Positions 15,831 to 24,301 of a stretch of DNA of 24,301 nt are shown here, piece after piece. Source of the DNA: a virus. The notes beneath the pieces were generated by a model. The model was not told where the DNA came from, ran no database searches, and saw only the letters and a list, made by a program, of their open reading frames with translations. The position numbers and the translations under genes were made by a program. Position 1 is the stretch's first letter. Each line of letters starts with the position of its first letter. The stretch is from positions 1 through 24,301 of IMG/VR virus record IMGVR_UViG_3300008050_000308. One strand, given 5' to 3'.

Positions 15831-16469
15831 ATGAAGACACTTATTGGCGACATAGCAGAGGCTCTCAACAGGACAGTCTGTCAGGGCTGGGATCGCACTT
15901 TCCTGGAGTCCATGCACAGCCAGCTTATGCGGCTATCTCCTCCGACACCTCGTCAGCAAGAGGTTCTTTATAGGGTCTTGGATCGTTGTGGGGCCTTGCA
16001 AGAAGACAAGCATGCCGAATGGGCGCTCGTTTATGAGACAGAATACAAGGCCCAGGCGCTAGCACTTGCTCATTATCACGCTAGAAAGTCATATTTTCAG
16101 CAGATTGCCAGGACTATTCTCCATGGAGAAGTTCCACAGCGACGAAAGTTTATGCGAATGCTGAATAATAAGTATTCCCAAAAAATTTGGTGTATCTACA
16201 ACACGCCCCCTCGATTGGAGACTGGAACGCATGTCAAACCTAGGGCAGCCTTCAATAGGTATTCTCATGTAGAGTCGGTGGTCAAGGCGGACTATGAAAG
16301 AGAACGCTCCGCCGTCACTCGCTTTGAGAAATACGGCGCTTTTATCGTGGGGACTGAAAAATATGTGTATTCGGCTGCTCGTGGTGGCAAGCGATATCGT
16401 CTTTTGCCCCCCGGCACATCCATTGTTTTTATCACAGAGGAGAGATTTTTAAAGATAATGAGATCCTAG
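15831..16469 (+). CDS. hypothetical 212-aa basic protein
   Basis: ATG 15831 is taken as start (TTG 15819 would add four residues; AAAAGGA sits between them). The N-terminal half is helical (LIGDIAEALNRTV, LTPRQ-like RLSPPTPRQQEVLYRVL, DKHAEWALVYETEYKAQALA) with an Arg/Lys-rich middle (QRRKFMRMLNNKYSQKIW). The C-terminal half is beta-rich and ends GKRYRLLPPGTSIVFITEER. The mix of basic patches suggests nucleic-acid binding, but no family is recognised. A short inverted repeat (GAGG..CCTC) lies just upstream. Confidence 0.7.
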   Translation: MKTLIGDIAEALNRTVCQGWDRTFLESMHSQLMRLSPPTPRQQEVLYRVLDRCGALQEDKHAEWALVYETEYKAQALALAHYHARKSYFQQIARTILHGEVPQRRKFMRMLNNKYSQKIWCIYNTPPRLETGTHVKPRAAFNRYSHVESVVKADYERERSAVTRFEKYGAFIVGTEKYVYSAARGGKRYRLLPPGTSIVFITEERFLKIMRS

Positions 16470-16484
16470 CTCTATAGTTAGTGT

Positions 16485-16811
16485 GTGACCGCTCGCCTGC
16501 CAAGATTTAAAAGAGGCGATCTAGTAAGGTGCCGCTATGATTTCCATTCCTACTACGTGCATGGGGGCAGTCATGGATTTGTCGGAGACAACGAACACTA
16601 CATATTTTATGGGCTCGTAACGAAGATAGAAGATGGCCAAGAAGGTTTCTGGGGGTGGGGACACCCTTACGTAGGTCCATATTATTCGGTATTATGCACT
16701 GATGGGCGCACCCGATATTTCACAGAAGACGAAATGACAGACGCAACAAAAGCAGAAATAGAAAATAATCCCTTGACAGGGTCCCAGAAATCTGATAAAT
16801 TAGAGAAGTAA
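16485..16811 (+). CDS. K-R-G-D-L-V family protein, 108 aa
   Basis: Starts at GTG 16485; no ribosome site is evident. PRFKRGDLVRCRYDFHSYYV is the family opening. A Gly/His/Trp/Tyr-rich middle follows (FVGDNEHYIFYGLVTKIEDG; GWGHPYVGPYYSVLCTDG), ending with RYFTEDEM. It is one of the larger members of the small-barrel paralogue group. The region 16773-16801 inside its 3' part holds a promoter for the following tRNA. No function is known. Confidence 0.72.
   Translation: MTARLPRFKRGDLVRCRYDFHSYYVHGGSHGFVGDNEHYIFYGLVTKIEDGQEGFWGWGHPYVGPYYSVLCTDGRTRYFTEDEMTDATKAEIENNPLTGSQKSDKLEK
16773..16801 (+). promoter_or_regulatory. promoter TTGACA-17-TAAATT for tRNA-Leu
   Basis: TTGACA (16773-16778), 17-bp spacer, TAAATT (16796-16801), within the 3' end of the preceding gene. 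The predicted start site near 16808 is 19 nt upstream of the tRNA. Confidence 0.65.
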
Positions 16812-16826
16812 ACAAAGTGAGGTTAA

Positions 16827-16900
16827 GGTTCCGTAGCCCAACCGGTAGAGGCACAGCACTCAAAATGCTGACAGTGTCGGTTCGAACCCGACCGGAACTA
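16827..16900 (+). tRNA. tRNA-Leu(CAA), class I body
   Basis: The cloverleaf is complete: acceptor GGTTCCG/CGGAACT (one G-U at the end), D-stem GCC/GGC, anticodon stem CAGCA/TGCTG with loop CTCAAAA (anticodon CAA, codon UUG), T-stem GTCGG/CCGAC with TTCGAAC loop, and A73. CCA is not encoded (CCC follows). The variable loop is only ACAGT (5 nt), whereas bacterial tRNA-Leu normally has a long variable arm, so the identity rests on the anticodon alone. Confidence 0.85.
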
Positions 16901-16935
16901 CCCTTTCTTCACAACAAAGACAAAGGCAAGACAAT

Positions 16936-17196
16936 ATGAAAAAGCCAGGAGAGGTATGGCACTGGCTCGATCAAGGCCCGGTTATTCTTTTACAGCCGGT
17001 AGAGGTTCCCGATCCTATTACCATGGAAGAGCTTGAAGAAGTATATGGGACATTAGAAGAATTTCGAAAATCTGATTGGCCAACAGAGGCAGGGTGGACG
17101 ATTAAGCTCCTAACAACCGGAGAAATACTCGATGTCCACCTAGATACCCTGCACGCAGGAACAGATATTTCGTCAACGAATTGTCAAGCTGGTTGA
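16936..17196 (+). CDS. hypothetical 86-aa protein, K-x-G-E-V-W start
   Basis: ATG 16936 lies 35 nt after the tRNA and probably shares its transcript. MKKPGEVWHWLDQGPVILLQ is a distant cousin of the K-V-G-D-L-V start. A Glu-rich helix follows (TMEELEEVYGTLEEFRKSDW), then WTIKLLTTGEILDVHLDTL. The ribosome site is weak (AAGGCAAG at 16921-16928). Its 3' end carries the 17193-17221 promoter region. Function unknown. Confidence 0.68.
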   Translation: MKKPGEVWHWLDQGPVILLQPVEVPDPITMEELEEVYGTLEEFRKSDWPTEAGWTIKLLTTGEILDVHLDTLHAGTDISSTNCQAG

Positions 17197-17221
17197 CTTT
17201 GTGGCGCTAATGGTCTATAAT
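17193..17221 (+). promoter_or_regulatory. sigma-70 promoter TTGACT-17-TATAAT
   Basis: TTGACT 17193-17198, 17-bp spacer, TATAAT 17216-17221, start near 17228. A second hexamer-like TTGTCA lies 12 nt upstream (17181-17186), faintly like the triple arrays at the right end. It serves genes 17247 and 17480 and the tRNAs Ser and Arg. Confidence 0.75.
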
Positions 17222-17246
17222 AGATATATCTGATGGAGGATGAAGT

Positions 17247-17471
17247 ATGAAAGCGATGTTGTTCGTAGTGTTGACGCTGGGTGAAGTCCTGGCCATCACG
17301 TCTACAGACGCGACGGTGGTGATCTCTGTTGCTAGCGAGTGTGCTGATGAAGTGGAGCGTGTCAAGAAGACGTTATCTCTTGATGATTTTCCTTGCGATC
17401 CGTATCCGGGTATGCTATTCTATTATACGGAATTGGGTCACATGCGCTGCGGTGAACCAGAGCCAAGTTAG
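17247..17471 (+). CDS. hypothetical 74-aa protein, hydrophobic N-terminus
   Basis: GGAGG at 17235-17239 precedes ATG 17247. MKAMLFVVLTLGEVLAI looks like a short hydrophobic segment, possibly an export signal or anchor. The rest holds SVASECADEVERVKKTLSL, a Cys-Pro-rich stretch (FPCDPYPGMLFYY) and HMRCGEPEPS. Three Cys suggest an exported or disulfide-bonded peptide. First gene behind the 17193 promoter. Confidence 0.7.
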   Translation: MKAMLFVVLTLGEVLAITSTDATVVISVASECADEVERVKKTLSLDDFPCDPYPGMLFYYTELGHMRCGEPEPS

Positions 17472-17479
17472 GAGAACCT

Positions 17480-17695
17480 ATGACTTACACTGTGATTTTT
17501 GTAGACGACGATGGGCAGTATTCCCAAGAAATTCATATAGGCACCCACGATGTGCGCCGCACATGGCGTGATATTCAGTTGTTGGTAGACCAAGATGATG
17601 CCAACGGATGGTACGGCACTTCGATTCTTGCCATTATTCCAGGAAGGCACGAAGTTTATTTTGAGCGCACCGTGAGAGAAGGTAACTCTTCATAG
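17480..17695 (+). CDS. hypothetical 71-aa protein
   Basis: AGGAG (17470-17474) precedes ATG 17480. It is beta-rich: MTYTVIFVDDDGQYSQEIHI, then GTHDVRRTWRDIQLLV, then WYGTSILAIIPGRHEVYFE. The stop is only 8 nt from the tRNA-Ser, with which it likely shares a transcript. No family is recognised. Confidence 0.68.
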   Translation: MTYTVIFVDDDGQYSQEIHIGTHDVRRTWRDIQLLVDQDDANGWYGTSILAIIPGRHEVYFERTVREGNSS

Positions 17696-17703
17696 GGTGC
17701 AAT

Positions 17704-17789
17704 GGTGAAATGACCGAGTGGACGAAGGTGCTCGCCTGGAAAGCGAGTGAAGTTAATAGCTTCCGTAGGTTCGAATCCTACTTTCACCG
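17704..17789 (+). tRNA. tRNA-Ser(GGA)
   Basis: Acceptor GGTGAAA/TTTCACC (perfect), anticodon stem CTCGC/GCGAG with loop CTGGAAA (anticodon GGA, codon UCC), long class II variable arm GAAG/CTTC as expected for Ser, T-stem GTAGG/CCTAC, G73. CCA is not encoded (CCC follows). Confidence 0.93.
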
Positions 17790-17802
17790 CCCCTTCCCCT
17801 AT

Positions 17803-17880
17803 GCGCCCTTAGCTCAGTTGGAATAGAGCAAAAGCCTTCTAAGCTTTAGGTCGTAGGTTCGAATCCTACAGGGCGTACCA
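17803..17880 (+). tRNA. tRNA-Arg(TCT)
   Basis: Acceptor GCGCCCT/AGGGCGT with a terminal G-U, D-stem GCTC/GAGC, anticodon stem AAAGC/GCTTT with loop CTTCTAA (anticodon TCT, codon AGA), T-stem GTAGG/CCTAC, A73, encoded CCA. AGA is often rare in proteobacterial hosts but common in AT-leaning phage genes, e.g. the AGA-AGA-AGG run at 6941-6949. Confidence 0.93.
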
Positions 17881-17901
17881 TTATAAACCCAGGAGTCAAC
17901 A

Positions 17902-18120
17902 ATGAAGAAAGAAGCAGTTAGCCATCCACTGCATTATAACGCCACTAAAATGGAAGTTATTGATGCAATCGCTGGGCTAGGACATGCTGAGGGATTCTGC
18001 GTGGGCAACATTATTAAATACGTCACACGTTATAGGCACAAGGGAGGAGTGGAAGATTTAAAGAAAGCCAAGTGGTATATTGATTACATGATTGAGAATT
18101 GCGAAAACAAGGAACACTGA
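17902..18120 (+). CDS. DUF3310-type protein (T7 gp1.7 C-terminal-like), 72 aa
   Basis: The 72-aa protein is the whole small domain: SHPLHYN (residues 7-13), EVIDAIAGLGHAEGFCVGN, then IIKYVTRYRHKGGVEDLKKA, then KWYIDYMIE. This is the highly conserved phage DUF3310 pattern, the module found at the C-terminus of T7 gene 1.7, reported to have nucleotide kinase activity in full-length form. Whether the short version is active is open. AGGAG (17889-17893) supports ATG 17902. Confidence 0.93.
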   Translation: MKKEAVSHPLHYNATKMEVIDAIAGLGHAEGFCVGNIIKYVTRYRHKGGVEDLKKAKWYIDYMIENCENKEH

Positions 18121-18121
18121 T

Positions 18122-18421
18122 ATGAGAGATATGAAGCAACAGAAGAACAATACAATTTTGAACCCGTGGTGGATGAGCGTAGCTCTTCTGATCACAACGA
18201 CGGCAACCGCGGCCACCTACGTCAATGTAGTAAATATGACAGAGACGGTGGCAGAGCGCGATTACCTTATGGACGGAAAGGCACACTATCTTCCAGGAAA
18301 GGTGTGCATTATTGATGCAGACGCCGCGACAGCGCCCGAAGATATTGTGATGTTTGCGCGAGCATGCAGCAAGGCGCATGAGCAATGGATCGGGGGACCA
18401 GAAGAGCAGGAAGAGCTTTAG
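18122..18421 (+). CDS. hypothetical 99-aa membrane-anchored protein
   Basis: ATG 18122 follows AAGGAA (18109-18114). Residues ~16-36 (WWMSVALLITTTATAATYV) form one membrane segment after a short basic head (MRDMKQQKNN). The periplasmic or soluble part has two Cys (VCIIDADAATAPED; FARACSKAHEQW) and an acidic tail. Its stop (TAG 18419-18421) lies within the end of the opposite-strand gene at 18418. Confidence 0.68.
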   Translation: MRDMKQQKNNTILNPWWMSVALLITTTATAATYVNVVNMTETVAERDYLMDGKAHYLPGKVCIIDADAATAPEDIVMFARACSKAHEQWIGGPEEQEEL

Positions 18422-18814: not shown

Positions 18815-19420
18815 ATGATTCACATTCTTGGACAGATTCCTCGACAAGTCGCTATCGCGGTGAGCGGAGGGGTAGACAGTATGGCTGTCTTGGATTTCCT
18901 GCGCCGTAGTCGCGATGTGACGGCTCTTCACTACAATCACGGGACACCCTACGCGCCAAAGGCAGAAGCTCTTGTGAGGGAATACTGCGCCGCTCAAGGG
19001 GTGTCTTTGATTGTAGGCAAGTGTGAAGAGGAGATGCCCGCGGGTGTGTCCCACGAGGCTTGGTGGAGACAGCAGCGCTATAAGTTTTTTAACGAAAGTA
19101 CCGAGCGAAAGATTATCACTGCCCATCATTTGGATGATTGTGTGGAGAATTGGGTTTTCACATCTATGCACGGCAACCCATTCTTGATTCCTTATGAGCG
19201 AGATCAGTTTATCCGACCATTTCTAACCACAGAGAAGCAGTCTTTTAACGACTGGTGCGAAAGGAAGAGTGTCCCGGTCATTACAGATCCCAGCAACACT
19301 AACACAAAGTATCGTAGAAACTACATTCGTCACGTAATGCTGCCGCATGTCCTGGAGATCAACCCAGGGATTAAAAAGACAATTCGACGTAAAGTCGTTG
19401 ACATGTATCCCGTAAAGTGA
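18815..19420 (+). CDS. tilS: tRNA(Ile)-lysidine synthetase, minimal N-terminal form
   Basis: The enzyme uses ATP to attach lysine to C34 of the CAU-anticodon tRNA(Ile), so that it reads AUA rather than AUG. Visible motifs: PP-loop SGGVDS (residues 17-22), HYNHG, TAHHLDD (102-108), IRPFL, then DPSNTNTKYRRNYIRHVMLP (158-177), the TilS-specific block. At 201 aa it lacks the C-terminal domains of the ~430-aa E. coli enzyme and is shorter than the ~310-aa Aquifex form. It lies immediately upstream of a CAT-anticodon tRNA, and AUA codons occur in the window (e.g. I29 of the 1155-aa protein), which makes the pair a coherent decoding module. The TilS assignment is firm; activity of so short a version is inferred. 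Confidence 0.95.
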   Translation: MIHILGQIPRQVAIAVSGGVDSMAVLDFLRRSRDVTALHYNHGTPYAPKAEALVREYCAAQGVSLIVGKCEEEMPAGVSHEAWWRQQRYKFFNESTERKIITAHHLDDCVENWVFTSMHGNPFLIPYERDQFIRPFLTTEKQSFNDWCERKSVPVITDPSNTNTKYRRNYIRHVMLPHVLEINPGIKKTIRRKVVDMYPVK

Positions 19421-19548: not shown

Positions 19549-19567
19549 CCTAAAATTTTCTTGCCCC
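19549..19567 (+). repeat. direct repeat copy 1, CCTAAAATTTTCTTGCCCC
   Basis: A 19-nt sequence immediately in front of tRNA-Asn (its last bases are in the acceptor arm), repeated with one mismatch at 19778-19796. Confidence 0.85.
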
Positions 19568-19638
19568 TTAGCTCAGTTGGTTAGAGCGCAAAATTGTTAA
19601 TTTTGATGTCCCCGGTTCAAGTCCGGGAGGGGCAGCCA
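19562..19638 (+). tRNA. tRNA-Asn(GTT)
   Basis: Acceptor TGCCCCT/AGGGGCA, D-stem GCTC/GAGC, anticodon stem CAAAA/TTTTG with loop TTGTTAA (anticodon GTT, codons AAC/AAU), T-stem CCCGG/CCGGG with TTCAAGT, G73, encoded CCA. Confidence 0.95.
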
Positions 19639-19645
19639 TTGAAAA

Positions 19646-19722
19646 GGGAGTAGGCGCAAAAACGGATCACTTGGAACGCCAACGTATATAGGCCAAGTCT
19701 CAAGTCCTGAGCGCCTACTCCC
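19646..19722 (+). ncRNA. strongly structured 77-nt RNA element of unknown family
   Basis: A perfect 12-bp stem GGGAGTAGGCGC (19646-19657) / GCGCCTACTCCC (19711-19722) encloses further helices: ACTTGG (19669-19674) / CCAAGT (19693-19698) and, as an alternative ending, CTCA/TGAG (19699-19702/19708-19711). A competing hairpin TTGG-AACG-CCAA (19671-19682) would break the middle helix, so a two-state fold is possible. It sits directly after tRNA-Asn in the tRNA operon, lacks a downstream U-tract, and no open frame in it looks coding. I recognise no known family (not a terminator, tRNA, hammerhead, tmRNA or preQ1 type by its visible features). Confidence 0.65.
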
Positions 19723-19777
19723 CCAAAGGGCGGCCATTTTAAAAAAGAATAGAGAGTTACAGACGGAAAGCCTTCCG

Positions 19778-19796
19778 CCTAAAATTTTCTTTCCCC
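19778..19796 (+). repeat. direct repeat copy 2, CCTAAAATTTTCTTTCCCC
   Basis: Second copy of the pre-tRNA 19-mer (one mismatch with 19549-19567), here not followed by a foldable tRNA. Confidence 0.85.
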
Positions 19797-19803
19797 ACCG
19801 CAC

Positions 19804-19821
19804 ACAACCGCGACAACCGCG
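19804..19821 (+). repeat. tandem 9-mer ACAACCGCG x2
   Basis: ACAACCGCG repeated exactly at 19804-19812 and 19813-19821 in the non-coding part in front of the 19851 gene. Confidence 0.8.
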
Positions 19822-19850
19822 CAAAAACCCACACATTTTAAAGAATTTTC

Positions 19851-20174
19851 ATGCCCTACATGCTCAACAAAGTTGTACAATGTGCCGACGGATTTGCCAT
19901 GTCTGTTCAGGCTAGCCAATTTTCATATTCTAACCCCCGCGTGGACGATGCCGACGAATACACACACGCCGAAGTCGGCATGCCGAACAAAGAAGACGAA
20001 CTTCTCATGCCATGGGCCGAAGACCATGAAACCCCAACAACAACCGTCTACCCATACGTGCCCCGGCAATTGATCATTAACGTCATCGCAAAGCACGGCG
20101 GAATGATTGGCGGAGATCTCCCCGCAGGATTTCCATATTTATATGCACCAGGAGCAAAAAAGCACCCTAGTTAG
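19851..20174 (+). CDS. widespread phage hypothetical protein, M-S-V-Q-A-S family, 107 aa
   Basis: ATG 19851 begins MPYMLNKVVQCADGFAMSVQ followed by ASQFSYSNPR; later parts are YTHAEVGMPNKEDELLMPW and TTVYPYVPRQLIINVIAKHGG. The combination F-x-M-S-V-Q-A, E-V-G-x-P, L-x-P-x-A-E-D and V-Y-x-Y-V-P recurs in many phage proteins of unknown role (from memory). It is thus a real, conserved gene despite the weak ribosome site (AAGAA, 19839-19843). Confidence 0.85.
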   Translation: MPYMLNKVVQCADGFAMSVQASQFSYSNPRVDDADEYTHAEVGMPNKEDELLMPWAEDHETPTTTVYPYVPRQLIINVIAKHGGMIGGDLPAGFPYLYAPGAKKHPS

Positions 20175-20911: not shown

Positions 20912-21124
20912 ATGTCCAATTCCCGCATACAAGTTGGAGACCTAATCCGCAGTTGGTGGATTGACCATGTAGAGTGGGGGTTCGGGGTTGTTGTATCAGT
21001 ACCAGAATATGAAGACTACATATATGCGGCGTTTCCACATTATGGAGTTAATCTAGTTTATGTCGACGAAATTGAAGTTATCAGCAGTGAAGGTCGGATC
21101 TATCTTGAAGGCGTTGTGGGCTGA
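20912..21124 (+). CDS. K-V-G-D-L-V family protein, 70 aa, read-through end
   Basis: MSNSRIQVGDLIRSWWIDHV is the family start; strands follow (GFGVVVSVPEYEDYIYAAFP, VNLVYVDEIEVISSEGR). Where related members stop after E-x-R, this copy has GGATCT instead of GGTGAT and reads on for eight residues (IYLEGVVG) to TGA 21122-21124. It overlaps the following paralogue out of frame (GTG 21087). Confidence 0.78.
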   Translation: MSNSRIQVGDLIRSWWIDHVEWGFGVVVSVPEYEDYIYAAFPHYGVNLVYVDEIEVISSEGRIYLEGVVG

Positions 21125-21266
21125 CGGTCTGGAAGTTATCGGTGCTTATGAAAAAGAAGAGCGCGGCTATATTATTTTAAGATCGCTGGAAGATAACGAA
21201 AGAATTGTCTGCAACCGGCATCATGTCAGCTTCGAAGTGGTTTCTGAGCCCGACCCGGAGCCTTGA
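21087..21266 (+). CDS. K-V-G-S-L family protein, 59 aa, nested start
   Basis: GTG 21087 is chosen because it gives MKVGSILKALWADG, the family start, although ATG 21060 is open 27 bases upstream. The gene overlaps its predecessor by 38 bases. The ending FEVVSEPDPEP is again the V-V-S-E pattern. The protein is probably a single small barrel. Function unknown. Confidence 0.72.
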   Translation: MKVGSILKALWADGLEVIGAYEKEERGYIILRSLEDNERIVCNRHHVSFEVVSEPDPEP

Positions 21267-21316
21267 CGTCCTCTTGACAAAAAAGGCTTGACTTTCCTGG
21301 AGAAGTCGTCTATAAT
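21263..21316 (+). promoter_or_regulatory. triple TTGAC promoter array 1
   Basis: TTGACG (21263), TTGACA (21274) and TTGACT (21288), spaced 11 and 14 nt, with TATAAT at 21311-21316, 17 bp after the last. The first hexamer overlaps the end of the preceding gene. Same layout as arrays 2-4. Confidence 0.75.
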
Positions 21317-21339
21317 GTTTAGGAAGCTTGGAGAAGTGA

Positions 21340-21426
21340 GTGATCGATTTCTGCATCAAAGTGTTTTTGATTAAAGTAGGCTACTACAGCACCATATTTT
21401 TTATTATGCCGGCTGTTGGAGTTTAA
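21340..21426 (+). CDS. possible 28-aa hydrophobic peptide
   Basis: GTG 21340 with GGAG at 21330-21333 (6 nt spacing) opens MIDFCIKVFLIKVGYYSTIF, then FIMPAVGV, ending TAA 21424-21426. The peptide is mostly hydrophobic, like a membrane microprotein. Its stop lies within the ribosome site of the next gene, a typical coupling. The short length makes the call tentative. Confidence 0.35.
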   Translation: MIDFCIKVFLIKVGYYSTIFFIMPAVGV

Positions 21427-21427
21427 A

Positions 21428-21622
21428 GTGTCCCTGAAAAAGAATAACGCAACTCGTGTCGCACATATTAAAAAGAATATGCGGGCCCAAGCTAGTATTG
21501 ACCGAGAAAACTATTTCGCCAATGGAGGCGAAGCATCTCGGTGGAGAGGCCTTCGTCTTGTCACCACGGACAAGAAGAAGAAAACAAATAAACGCGCATG
21601 TCGCGGGAGGATGTGGACGTGA
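21428..21622 (+). CDS. very basic small protein, 64 aa, K-R-A-C-R-G-R end
   Basis: GTG 21428 is preferred over TTG 21416 because GGAG (21418-21421) lies 6 nt upstream. The protein is strongly basic (MSLKKNNATRVAHIKKNMR, DKKKKTNKRACRGRMWT) with an aromatic middle (RENYFANGGEASRWRGLRL). The R-A-C-R-G-R tail is seen in other small phage proteins (recollection). Nucleic-acid binding is plausible. The stop TGA overlaps the next GTG start. Confidence 0.7.
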   Translation: MSLKKNNATRVAHIKKNMRAQASIDRENYFANGGEASRWRGLRLVTTDKKKKTNKRACRGRMWT

Positions 21623-21825
21623 AGAATTTAAAGGTGGGGGATCTGCTGGAATGGCATGCCCCTAAGTCCAAGGTCCGCGCTGCGAAGGCCGCCGGCGACA
21701 GTCGATGGTACGCGCTTGTCGTTAAACTTGAGCAGCCACACATTTGGATTAAGTGGCTCGCCAATGGCGAGGTCGAGGATGCAATGCGCTCTTCGGCTAA
21801 TATTAGGGTCGTAAGCAGGAAGTAA
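21619..21825 (+). CDS. K-V-G-D-L-L family protein, 68 aa
   Basis: GTG 21619 is chosen over ATG 21598 because GGGAGG (21604-21609) is 9 nt upstream and the start shares bases with the preceding stop (GTGA). MKNLKVGDLLEWHAPKSKV, then RWYALVVKLEQPHIWIKWLA, then GEVEDAMRSSANIRVVSRK. The last part carries the R-V-V-S variant of the family ending. Function unknown. Confidence 0.76.
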   Translation: MKNLKVGDLLEWHAPKSKVRAAKAAGDSRWYALVVKLEQPHIWIKWLANGEVEDAMRSSANIRVVSRK

Positions 21826-21828
21826 ACA

Positions 21829-22023
21829 ATGAGAGTTGGTGATCTGGTTCGATGTACATATAGTGATATTGCCGGCGCTATGGCACCAGTCGTCGGCGTC
21901 ATCATTGCCTTGCAGCTTAAGCAAAACTCGTTTACACCGGCGGTTAGAGTGCATATCGGCTCTCAAAACAAGAAAGTTTGGTTTCTCGTCGAAGACGTAA
22001 AGGTGATTAATGAAGGTCGGTGA
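21829..22023 (+). CDS. R-V-G-D-L-V family protein, 64 aa
   Basis: AGGAAG (21817-21822) precedes ATG 21829. MRVGDLVRCTYSDIAGAMAP, then VVGVIIALQLKQNSF, then VRVHIGSQNKKVWFLVEDVK, ending V-I-N-E-G-R. The ending bases encode the next start (ATG 22010) in another frame, the family's chain arrangement. Confidence 0.8.
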   Translation: MRVGDLVRCTYSDIAGAMAPVVGVIIALQLKQNSFTPAVRVHIGSQNKKVWFLVEDVKVINEGR

Positions 22024-22189
22024 TTTGGTAAGACTCTCGATCCTTGATTATCCGCAGTACCGGGGGAAGATTGGAGTACTCGTGCGAGAGCATGGTGTTG
22101 ATCGTTGGCGTGTGTATATCGCAGGACGAACGCATCCGTACCTCGTTCATGGTGCCGCGGCGCTTCCCGTCGCGCCCCTTGCAGCTTAG
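22010..22189 (+). CDS. K-V-G-D-L-V family protein, 59 aa
   Basis: ATG 22010 opens MKVGDLVRLSILDYPQYRG, then KIGVLVREHGVDRWRVYIA, then TYPYLV-like THPYLVHGAAALPVAPLAA, ending TAG 22187-22189. The start overlaps the VINEGR end of the previous gene by 14 nt. It is a typical family member with an R-x-x-V core and a short Ala/Pro tail. Confidence 0.75.
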   Translation: MKVGDLVRLSILDYPQYRGKIGVLVREHGVDRWRVYIAGRTHPYLVHGAAALPVAPLAA

Positions 22190-22212
22190 CCATCATAGGG
22201 CATCTACCGCAC

Positions 22213-22267
22213 TTGACATTCGCTTTACAACTTCGTGCTTGACTTCTGCTCATGCATGTGGGATAAT
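22213..22267 (+). promoter_or_regulatory. triple TTGAC promoter array 2
   Basis: TTGACA (22213), TTTACA (22224) and TTGACT (22239), spaced 11 and 15 nt, GATAAT at 22262-22267 (17-bp spacer). Part of a repeated block shared with arrays 3 and 4. Confidence 0.75.
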
Positions 22268-22294
22268 ATAGCATATTCAAACGGGAGCATAAAC

Positions 22295-22486
22295 ATGTCC
22301 GAAGAACCTACCTCCTCTCTCGATGAGGATCGCTACCTTACTTCAATGGAAGCTGTAGCTCACCGCCTTGAAATGGCGATGACTATGCTGGTGTTGTGGC
22401 AGCAGGCGCACGAAGAAACCGGTTCTGAAATGACCGAACTCTTGGTCACTTCGTTTGCCGCATGCGCAATTCCAGCCGAGGCTTAA
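22295..22486 (+). CDS. hypothetical 63-aa helical protein
   Basis: GGGAGC (22283-22288) supports ATG 22295, 28 nt behind the promoter. MSEEPTSSLDEDRYLTSMEA starts it; the remainder is a long helix (VAHRLEMAMTMLVLWQQAHE) and an acidic end (GSEMTELLVTSFAACAIPA). It may be a small coiled-coil or membrane-associated protein. No family is recognised. Confidence 0.7.
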   Translation: MSEEPTSSLDEDRYLTSMEAVAHRLEMAMTMLVLWQQAHEETGSEMTELLVTSFAACAIPAEA

Positions 22487-22488
22487 CA

Positions 22489-22851
22489 ATGGGTTATCGC
22501 TCAGAAGTCATCCTGGCAATTGGCCCCGATATCGTGCCGCACTTTATGACTCTCATGGCTCGGTGTCCCCAAGCCCGCGAACTTTGCTGGTCGCAGTCAA
22601 GTGAACTGATCAAAGATTACGCGGCAATCGAGGGCGCCCTGTGCTTTAGATGGGCATCTATCAAGTGGTATGAATCTTATGTCGGAGTCCGCGCCATTCA
22701 GCAATTCCTTTCGTGGTGCGAAGACGAGGGCCCTGATGGTATCGATGCCACGGAACACTTCCGCTTTGTGCGTATCGGTGAAGAAATGGACGACACCACC
22801 TTGCTTGGCTATGGCTTTAGTATTCACGTCGAGCGTGTTATTTCTTATTGA
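22489..22851 (+). CDS. phage hypothetical protein, M-G-Y-R-S-E-V family, 120 aa
   Basis: CGAGG (22478-22482) precedes ATG 22489. MGYRSEVILAIGPDIVPHFM is a start shared by a broad family of phage proteins of unknown role (recollection). The rest is alpha/beta with several Trp (CWSQSSELIKDYAAIEGALC, FRWASIKWYESYVGVRAIQQ, FRFVRIGEEMDDT). It starts 3 bases after the preceding stop and ends just before promoter array 3. Confidence 0.85.
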   Translation: MGYRSEVILAIGPDIVPHFMTLMARCPQARELCWSQSSELIKDYAAIEGALCFRWASIKWYESYVGVRAIQQFLSWCEDEGPDGIDATEHFRFVRIGEEMDDTTLLGYGFSIHVERVISY

Positions 22852-22902
22852 CATTCTCTTAACAACTTTGCTGTTGACTTCTGCCGCGCGGCATGGTAAA
22901 TT
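22848..22902 (+). promoter_or_regulatory. triple TTGAC promoter array 3
   Basis: TTGACA (22848), TTAACA (22859) and TTGACT (22874), spaced 11 and 15 nt, TAAATT at 22897-22902 (17-bp spacer). The first hexamer overlaps the end of the preceding gene. Confidence 0.72.
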
Positions 22903-22928
22903 ATAAGGGTAATCAGCGAGGACCACAC

Positions 22929-23270
22929 ATGGCATATCTTAAGAAAAACGATCTTGTAATCATTCGTAATACGGACACAACCATCCAGGCGCGTGTTGTT
23001 GACATGCAGTTCCGGCGCTTTAAGCGCTCTTGGCAGGATAAGAAGACCGGTGAATGGAAGTACCGATGGAAGTCGGTGCCTTACGCGATCTGTGAGTGCT
23101 TCCTGGGTGCTCCGATGGGAACCGAATTTCTCATTCCTGGCTACAAGCTGAAGAATGAAACCAAGGACGGCGAGAAGCTCCTGGTTCTGCGTGATAAGTA
23201 CGCAGCAGAGTTTGATGGAAGCTGGGTGCGGCAGATGCTAGCAGACAGCAAGGAAAAGCGGAGCGCGTAA
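22929..23270 (+). CDS. hypothetical 113-aa protein, K-K-N-D-L-V start
   Basis: GAGG (22918-22921) supports ATG 22929. MAYLKKNDLVIIRNTDTTIQ is a divergent version of the K-V-G-D-L-V opening. A basic, aromatic loop follows (RRFKRSWQDKKTGEWKYRWK) and then PYAICECFLGAPMGTEFLIP and DGEKLLVLRDKYAAEFDGSW. It is the largest member near the right end and has a nucleic-acid-binding look. Its stop shares a base with the next start (TAATG, 23268-23272). Confidence 0.75.
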   Translation: MAYLKKNDLVIIRNTDTTIQARVVDMQFRRFKRSWQDKKTGEWKYRWKSVPYAICECFLGAPMGTEFLIPGYKLKNETKDGEKLLVLRDKYAAEFDGSWVRQMLADSKEKRSA

Positions 23271-23530
23271 TGACTGACGCTGAGTTATATAATACCGATA
23301 TCAGCTTGTCGCCTGAAGAAGTCGCTGTTGTCTTGGCAGCCCTTCGGACGGGGATTAACCACGCGGCCTCGCCCGTCGAGGTAGACATTCTGAAGCGCGT
23401 CGAGCTACGCCTGATCCGAGCGTGGCCCGGCCCGCATGCGCACCGGTGGCGTAATGAATCCGCGGAGGATGAAGAGGCTCCAGAGCCACGCTCGCCGCGG
23501 CTGACGATGCCGGAATGGGGAGGGTTTTAG
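23270..23530 (+). CDS. hypothetical 86-aa protein
   Basis: ATG 23270 overlaps the preceding TAA by one base. The first 55 residues are helical (MTDAELYNTDISLSPEEVAV, VLAALRTGINHAASPVEVDI, LKRVELRLIRAWPG) and the remainder is acidic and Pro-rich (WRNESAEDEEAPEPRSPRLT). The stop at 23528-23530 overlaps the GTG start of the SWIM gene. Higher GC than its neighbours. No family is recognised. Confidence 0.7.
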   Translation: MTDAELYNTDISLSPEEVAVVLAALRTGINHAASPVEVDILKRVELRLIRAWPGPHAHRWRNESAEDEEAPEPRSPRLTMPEWGGF

Positions 23531-23865
23531 TGGAGTTTCCGATCAAGACCCGCATTCCACCCATCCTAATGACATCCGTTGTCAATGGTCAGCGCTATGC
23601 AATTGCCGGGAGTCACTGGATTGAAGTGCCCCCGGAGACCACGCGCGAGGACTTAGACAAGTACTTCACCTGGGAGCCCTACAGACCGCCTGAGAGCGGC
23701 TCCAGCGGCTCCGACGGCTCCTGGACGGTCACAGGTAGCAAGGGCGCCCAATACACCGTCAGAAGGCGGCAGGAGGCTTGGACGTGCAGTTGTCCCGGCT
23801 TTGGCTTCCGCCGCCGCTGCAAGCATGTGACCAACATGAAGGCACAGCTTGAAGGCGCAGAATAA
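23530..23865 (+). CDS. SWIM zinc-finger protein, 111 aa
   Basis: GTG 23530 is chosen over ATG 23515 because GGGGAGGG (23516-23523) sits 6 nt upstream. Residues ~62-104 hold a strand pair (GSWTVTGSKGAQYTVRRRQE) followed by WTCSCPGFGFRRRCKHVTNM: the SWIM pattern C86-x-C88-x8-C97-x-H99. SWIM domains bind DNA or proteins. The N-terminal part (VVNGQRYAIAGSHWIEVPPE) is a small beta-rich unit of its own. This is the clearest named domain in the right third. Confidence 0.9.
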   Translation: MEFPIKTRIPPILMTSVVNGQRYAIAGSHWIEVPPETTREDLDKYFTWEPYRPPESGSSGSDGSWTVTGSKGAQYTVRRRQEAWTCSCPGFGFRRRCKHVTNMKAQLEGAE

Positions 23866-23869
23866 GCGC

Positions 23870-23924
23870 TTGACATTCACTTGACAACTTTGGGGTTGAC
23901 TTTAGCATCAGCATGTGGGATAAT
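23870..23924 (+). promoter_or_regulatory. triple TTGAC promoter array 4
   Basis: TTGACA (23870), TTGACA (23881) and TTGACT (23896), spaced 11 and 15 nt, GATAAT at 23919-23924 (17-bp spacer). It serves the last K-V-G-D-L-V genes. Confidence 0.75.
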
Positions 23925-23957
23925 GTATACATGATGAACCCTACCCCGGACAAATGT

Positions 23958-24167
23958 ATGAAAGTCGGTGATCTGGTAAAAATAACTGGAAGATGTGAAC
24001 CGGGCCGAATTATATTATTGCTCAAATCACATGGTAGAAGAAGCTACAATCTTGGAAAAGATGTAGGTGAGTTGTTTGCGGGTATTCCGCTGGGAGCATC
24101 GTTAGGCGTGGAAACTGATTACTTTGTTTTTGAAAATAATGCTGAGGTTATCAGTGAAAGTCGGTGA
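23958..24167 (+). CDS. K-V-G-D-L-V family protein, 69 aa
   Basis: ATG 23958 opens MKVGDLVKITGRCEPG. Earlier in-frame ATGs at 23931 and 23934 lie at or near the expected transcription start, so they are less likely. The core (RIILLLKSHGRRSYNLGKDV, DYFVFENNAEV) is barrel-like and ends I-S-E-S-R. These final bases carry the GTG start of the next gene. Function unknown. Confidence 0.76.
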   Translation: MKVGDLVKITGRCEPGRIILLLKSHGRRSYNLGKDVGELFAGIPLGASLGVETDYFVFENNAEVISESR

Positions 24168-24301
24168 TTTAGTAAAGCACACAAAGAGAGGACAAACCTT
24201 TATCGGTCTTATTACTAAGAAGATCGACTGGTCCCCGGATAGCAGTAAACTCGATAAGTGGGCTGTCCTGTACAACGGACAAGAGCGGAATTGTATCGCT
24301 C
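24154..24301 (+). CDS. K-V-G-D-L-V family protein, cut by the window end
   Basis: GTG 24154 overlaps the I-S-E-S-R end of the preceding gene out of frame and begins MKVGDLVKHTKRGQTFIGLI, then TKKIDWSPDSSKLDKWAVL, then YNGQERNCIA, still open at the last base. It is the last visible link of the overlapping family chain. Confidence 0.75.
   Translation, partial: MKVGDLVKHTKRGQTFIGLITKKIDWSPDSSKLDKWAVLYNGQERNCIA

Follow-up and report, generated by a model that had tools for sequence, protein, structure and literature searches.

What reads a phage promoter whose -35 hexamer seems to be written three times? The question is raised by the virus record IMGVR_UViG_3300008050_000308, which was analysed in its entirety (24.3 kb, the window). 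A preliminary description had placed in it four arrays of three TTGAC-like hexamers, each followed by a -10 box, and all four are present exactly where they had been put (Table 1). We call the hexamers R1, R2 and R3, in the direction of reading. The steps R1-R2 and R2-R3 and the spacer from R3 to the -10 box are 11, 14 and 17 in array 1, and 11, 15 and 17 in each of arrays 2, 3 and 4. The threefold recurrence stands, although in arrays 2 and 3 the second hexamer reads TTTACA and TTAACA instead of TTGAC, a departure that proved informative. Our answer to the question, to which we give slightly better than even confidence, is that the arrays form a clade-wide family of co-regulated two-module promoters, by which a putative activator would raise a whole block of genes.

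The pattern TTGACNTTNNNTTNACAACTTN5TTGACTT is matched by arrays 2-4 with 0 mismatches, while 100 dinucleotide shuffles of the window gave no match within 3 mismatches (0 expected by chance). When 2.9 million viral contigs were scanned for exact matches, 23 stretches were returned, and a wider pattern including the -10 box gave 58; array 2 has a near-identical copy in one relative (locus L014). In 15 whole records we counted 67 matches, always on one strand only within a record, against 0 matches to the reversed control pattern. When the spacing is left open, 11/15/17 clearly predominates, with 107 of the 141 strong matches, and five shuffles yield 5 matches of any geometry. We assembled a non-redundant set of 145 arrays, which was then extended with more loci to 284 promoters in 69 loci. 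The R1-R2 step is 11 in 143 of the 145 arrays; the R2-R3 step is 15, 14 or 16 (124, 18 and 3 arrays), and the spacer before the -10 box is 17 in 121 of them, 18 in 17 and 16 in 4. The preliminary description had made its case depend on further copies in relatives. These are abundant: the same architecture is found there in hundreds of copies, which supports the reading of the arrays as promoters preceded by a conserved control block.

The third hexamer is the -35 element, as had been proposed: it lies 17 bp from a good -10 box, which is extended by TGn in 191 of the 284 promoters (67%), and it reads exactly TTGACA in only 11.6%. A ribosome-binding site and start codon could be located for 255 of the 284 promoters, at a median of 32 nt past the -10 box. 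With -35 and -10 elements at 16-18 bp and a position upstream of genes, the arrays are thus predicted promoters of the sigma-70 type. The suggestion that the extra hexamers lie on one face of the DNA holds for R1 and R2 (11 bp, about 1.05 turns) but not for R3, which is 14-15 bp (about 1.4 turns) from R2 and nearly on the opposite face.

In order to avoid circularity, each box was profiled in promoters selected on the other elements only. R1 is (T/C)TGACA, its A4 and C5 being invariant (100%) and its A6 reaching 97%; R2 is TT(G83/T13/A4)ACA, with A4, C5 and A6 at 100% and G3 at only 83%. In R3 it is the TTG which is strongest (98/83/87%), the following A and C reaching 79% and 80% and the sixth base being T in 54% and A in 23%. 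R1, at -61, and R2, at -50, are each preceded by a C and form together an 11 bp repeat YnCTTGACAWW; from -62 to -44 the sequence is CTTGACATTYNCTTGACAA, some C and G bases being fixed. On the 284-promoter set, the information content is 28.7 bits for R1R2, 8.5 for R3 and 12.0 for TGn/-10. The likeness of R1R2 hardly differs within and between genomes (0.839 vs 0.828), whereas R3 drifts genome by genome (0.725 vs 0.634): in one relative (G019) R3 is TAGACA in 8 of 8 arrays, with R1 and R2 at or near consensus, and in another (G048) it is frequently TTTAC. Since the conservation is opposite and R3 drifts independently, what reads R1/R2 appears to differ from what reads R3.

The carriers of the arrays are marine phages of about 200 kb with nearly all genes in one direction and, in 5 large records, a gp23-like capsid (PF07068; open frames of 587-639 amino acids), whose nearest relatives at about 34-45% identity are those of Microcystis phage Mel-JY01, Rhodothermus phage RM378 and Flavobacterium phage immuto. 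Six near-complete genomes have about 75 genes in common. A cyanophage identity, sought through psbA, was rejected, as no PF00124 was found in 20 records.

In these six genomes the arrays are confined: 67 of 68 strict calls lie in one block of 10-20 kb, which crosses the record ends in two genomes, and all are on the gene strand. The lone call outside the block, at 50189 of the 205 kb genome G011, is inside a gene and probably due to chance; all 12 strong sites of this genome are found at 159,087-171,950. No strict call was obtained on the opposite strand of the six genomes, and with a looser pattern G048 shows one reverse-strand copy inside its block region, and G053 has another. As the window is a whole record, its own block is probably truncated at the right end. 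The block contains many small unknown genes together with a MoxR-type AAA ATPase and a VWA/DUF2201 metallopeptidase-like protein. The last two, present in all six genomes, can be seen at 15842-18222 of a locus of the G011 block (L070), each with its own R1-R2 promoter. Many small genes and dense promoters suggest that the block may be expressed early.

Outside the block the same genomes have solitary promoters, which we defined as TTGACN-17-(T/G)ATAWT; there are 85 of them on the gene strand of the six genomes. Their -35 element is TTGACA in 69 cases out of 85, as against 7 of the 39 R1R2 promoters with a TTGACN -35 (Fisher p = 2e-11), a contrast first noticed in two genomes. This means that one phage genome shows two classes of sigma-70 promoters, and that the upstream box accompanies a weakened -35 element, as would be expected if a bound factor compensates for it.

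We propose the following mechanism. Module 1 would be the tandem direct repeat of 11 bp, to which two subunits of a single non-sigma DNA-binding protein most likely attach head-to-tail; it is placed so that this regulator could contact the alpha or sigma-region-4 parts of RNA polymerase. Module 2 would be a host sigma-70 promoter, with R3 as -35, a spacer of 17 bp and an extended TGn-TATAWT; its start region is conserved and its ribosome-binding site close. R3 usually differs from TTGACA, whereas the same phages retain this hexamer in their solitary promoters. For this reason the putative regulator is most likely an activator, which would raise all of the 9-14 promoters in a gene block in concert.

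Several results weigh against this proposal. R3 is frequently TTGACA in three genomes, G057 (5/7), G045 (6/14) and G010 (5/12), which weakens the argument for an activator there. Promoter by promoter, the R1R2 score is uncorrelated with the strength of R3 (rho 0.05) and correlates positively with the -10 box; this is no simple compensation. The putative early timing of the block is read from its gene content. The winged helix of OmpR/PhoB type (PF00486) is absent from 10 records at an E-value of 0.1, at which controls were detected, and we rejected a phage-encoded regulator of the OmpR family. Finally, a candidate regulator of 129 amino acids at 194552-194941 of G011 has only a sub-threshold Fis/HTH_28 match in Pfam, at its C-terminus. 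This protein, at 19553-19939 of locus L083, is the one conserved candidate resembling a helix-turn-helix protein; it is found in all six near-complete genomes and was not found in Mel-JY01.

The box was also sought in prokaryote genomes, as a possible mark of a host regulon. In 84,980 prokaryote species genomes the full R1R2+R3 pattern has 0 matches, and the R1R2 half-pattern has 12 sites where about 15 are expected by chance. Seven of the 12 do not have the promoter layout; of the five that do, three are in a WOR-3 "chromosome" and one each in a Marinimicrobia contig and a Bacteroidetes contig, always in stretches encoding homologues of the proteins of these phages, and we read them as phage DNA misbinned into metagenome-assembled genomes (MAGs). 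Pieces of array-bearing phages seem to be binned into a Marinimicrobia MAG (L268), a Bacteroidetes MAG (L271) and the WOR-3 sequence CP070664 (L266/L272). We rejected a host regulon box on the 0 full matches in 84,980 genomes, an exact search which has limited power against a degenerate host box. The putative binder, phage-encoded or of the host, is most likely a non-sigma protein.

That R1-R2 is instead the operator of a phage repressor, which would silence the block after the early phase while the sigma-70 promoter is active alone, seems to us unlikely. The site is just upstream of the -35 element, uniform across the promoters of one block and made of a rigid repeat, and an extended -10 box in two thirds of the promoters could make them strong unaided. 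Repressor sites, however, more usually overlap the -35 or -10 elements, and a pure shut-off operator leaves unexplained why a -35 other than TTGACA is so frequent in the R1R2 class alone.

Less probable again is a direct contact of R1-R2 with RNA polymerase, as a sequence-specific equivalent of the UP element read by the alpha-CTD of a host or phage-modified polymerase and requiring no further factor. UP elements consist of A/T tracts that are recognised in the minor groove, whereas the invariant C at fixed places of R1-R2 is more like a major-groove reading. It is nevertheless true that R1-R2, at -61 to -44, occupies the place of the UP element and that the early promoters of T4 are UP/-35/TGn/-10 promoters (PMC2988021).

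A different kind of explanation takes R1-R2 mainly for the boundary of a cassette or of recombination: the promoter would be a mobile cassette that spreads genes, and R1-R2 would be conserved by homologous exchange, not by binding. One argument for it is the position of R1 with respect to the preceding gene. Counting as stops the TGA that close an upstream open frame of at least 55 codons, we found that the TGA of R1 is such a stop in 144 of 253 promoters, compared with 24 of 232 for R2 and 5 of 189 for R3, the share among all TGA of that strand being 8%. Within the window, arrays 1 (open reading frame 21060-21266) and 3 (frame ending at 22851) have such a stop in R1. The join of gene and promoter is a compact one, the upstream box supplying the stop codon of the preceding gene. 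Moreover, similar promoter stretches precede different genes, and promoters of one genome resemble each other in their spacers and start regions more than promoters of different genomes do. The preliminary description had mentioned duplication of a control block, and to this extent it is supported: the likeness of the spacers and of R3 within a genome is consistent with the unit having been duplicated or gene-converted to some extent. But exchange alone would homogenise the whole 60 bp, while across divergent genomes only R1R2, TTG and the -10 box are kept and the spacers are near random; as the main role of R1-R2 we hold it to be improbable.

Hardly credible, finally, is the first proposal, which makes the three hexamers equivalent -35-like sites for several sigma-region-4-like proteins, among them the 90-amino-acid product of 725-997, for even though TTGAC is common to the three boxes and the phage does encode a Sigma70_r4 protein conserved in several relatives, the conservation profiles led us to reject three equal -35 hexamers (in R1/R2 it is AC/ACA which is invariant, G3 being variable in R2), R3 varies independently, and the protein is undetectable, by PF04545 and by a profile of 12 sequences, in four near-complete genomes (G006, G045, G048 and G055) having at least 9 arrays each and sharing about 75 genes with G011. 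The protein is present in only part of the array-bearing clade, and its conserved recognition helix SFARVKQIETKA has F and A aligned to R584 and E585, which we take to be the residues of sigma-70 contacting the -35 element. It is unlikely to be an obligate binder of R1/R2. It joins a Cys-rich N-terminus (C-x3-C-x6-C-x4-C) to a sigma-70 region-4 helix-turn-helix and has 79 relatives in viral contigs, with an invariant core RVKQIETKA.

Table 1. Arrays and neighbouring genes in the window, with the elements read in each.
Feature	Position	Strand	Elements and remarks
Sigma70_r4-like protein, 90 amino acids	725-997	+	Cys-rich N-terminus; PF04545, 37.5 bits
Array/promoter 1	21263-21316	+	R1 21263-21268 TTGACG; R2 21274-21279 TTGACA; R3/-35 21288-21293 TTGACT; -10 21311-21316 TATAAT
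Small genes downstream of promoter 1	21598-22190	+	21598-21825; 21829-22023; about 22014-22190; two are VGDLV-type paralogues
Array/promoter 2	22213-22267	+	R1 22213-22218 TTGACA; R2 22224-22229 TTTACA; R3/-35 22239-22244 TTGACT; extended -10 TGG + 22262-22267 GATAAT
Genes downstream of promoter 2	22295-22851	+	22295-22486; 22489-22851 ("MGYRS" family, also in the blocks of relatives)
Array/promoter 3	22848-22902	+	R1 22848-22853 TTGACA; R2 22859-22864 TTAACA; R3/-35 22874-22879 TTGACT; extended -10 TGG + 22897-22902 TAAATT
Genes downstream of promoter 3	22929-23865	+	22929-23270 ("MAYLKKNDLVI" family); 23270-23530; 23515-23865 (SWIM zinc finger)
Array/promoter 4	23870-23924	+	R1 23870-23875 TTGACA; R2 23881-23886 TTGACA; R3/-35 23896-23901 TTGACT; extended -10 TGG + 23919-23924 GATAAT
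Likely first gene downstream of promoter 4	23958-24167	+	MKVGDLVKIT...

The "MAYLKKNDLVI" gene has a relative in L070 which is likewise behind an R1-R2 promoter. Several small paralogues with a VGDLV start are found at 20912-24301 (about 20912, 21829, 22014, 23958 and 24157), and similar ones occur in the blocks of relatives, for example at 162136-162339 of G011. Elsewhere in the window we noticed a phage GroEL (4627-6210; at most about 44% identity to records of the phage collection), a ClpP-like protease (2201-2845), and, close to tRNA genes, a PP-loop protein at 18815-19420 (IAVSGGVDSMAVLDFL) which resembles the N-terminal domain of TilS and does not have a PHROG match. The tRNA-Arg(tct) at 17803-17880 hints weakly at a gammaproteobacterial host: it shows 94% identity to part of Proteus phage PM135 and 87-93% identity to the tRNA-Arg of Vibrio phages.

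We can now compare the arrays with known systems. They were found neither in the named-phage collection by blastn nor, by pattern, in the four nearest capsid relatives (Mel-JY01, RM378, immuto and LR756508). The T4 late box TATAAATA was tried and rejected, the coding strand not being enriched in it (3 occurrences vs 6-12 expected). The PeSL cassettes of T4 are reportedly repeated early promoter units that could allow gene shuffling; the arrays too are repeated promoter units, but stem-loops are not in excess within the 45 nt that precede R1 (mean -7.5 vs -7.4 kcal/mol). For the T4-like phage pf16 the published table lists single -35/-10 promoters and no arrays (PMC5587285). The Far-T4 phages have longer capsids, with which our frames of 585-639 amino acids agree, T4 transcription-regulation genes were not detected in them, and the paper describing them does not use the word "promoter" (PMC4360716). 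The nearest capsid relatives of the array-bearing phages include RM378 and other non-canonical T4-like phages; the four that we scanned are without arrays, and we treat a Far-T4 membership of the array-bearing phages as a lead only.

The promoters of the OmpR/PhoB family have boxes which are 11 bp direct repeats near the -35 element with a T-n-ACA-like core, and in this the head-to-tail repeat of the arrays resembles them. The Pho box, however, is CTGTCAT, a different sequence, and neither the PF00486 search nor the exact search of prokaryote genomes gave a sign of such a regulator or of a host regulon. With the middle promoters of T4, which depend on MotA and sigma appropriation, the arrays would share, if our proposal is right, the working of an upstream box, a TGn/-10 and a weakened -35, implying an activator. 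But T4 has only one MotA box, whose centre is at -30 and which takes the place of the -35 element (PMC2988021), whereas the arrays have two boxes further upstream and retain the TTG of R3. The arrays also resemble the early promoters of T4: in both cases we are dealing with phages of the T4 superfamily having many promoters per genome of the host sigma-70 type, with an extended -10 (PMC2988021). Where T4 has an A/T-rich UP element, however, the arrays have a conserved tandem repeat of 11 bp containing fixed C and G; they differ further by a -35 which is often sub-consensus, and by their confinement to one block.

We found no published description of the array family in open-licence papers, and it appears to be new as a clade-wide, two-module variant of phage sigma-70 promoters. 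One clade of uncultured marine T4-like phages thereby receives a precise, searchable signature of 60 bp, R1-R2-R3-TGn-10, which also marks the block where their many small genes lie; how such a phage starts its programme becomes a testable question about one putative regulator. It is possible, though we would rather doubt it than assume it, that these phages carry or inject a dedicated DNA-binding co-activator of the host sigma-70 polymerase, which would read the tandem 11 bp box and switch on one block of host-takeover genes at once. If this is true, the co-activator would be a third strategy of the T4 superfamily, beside strong UP promoters and MotA/AsiA.

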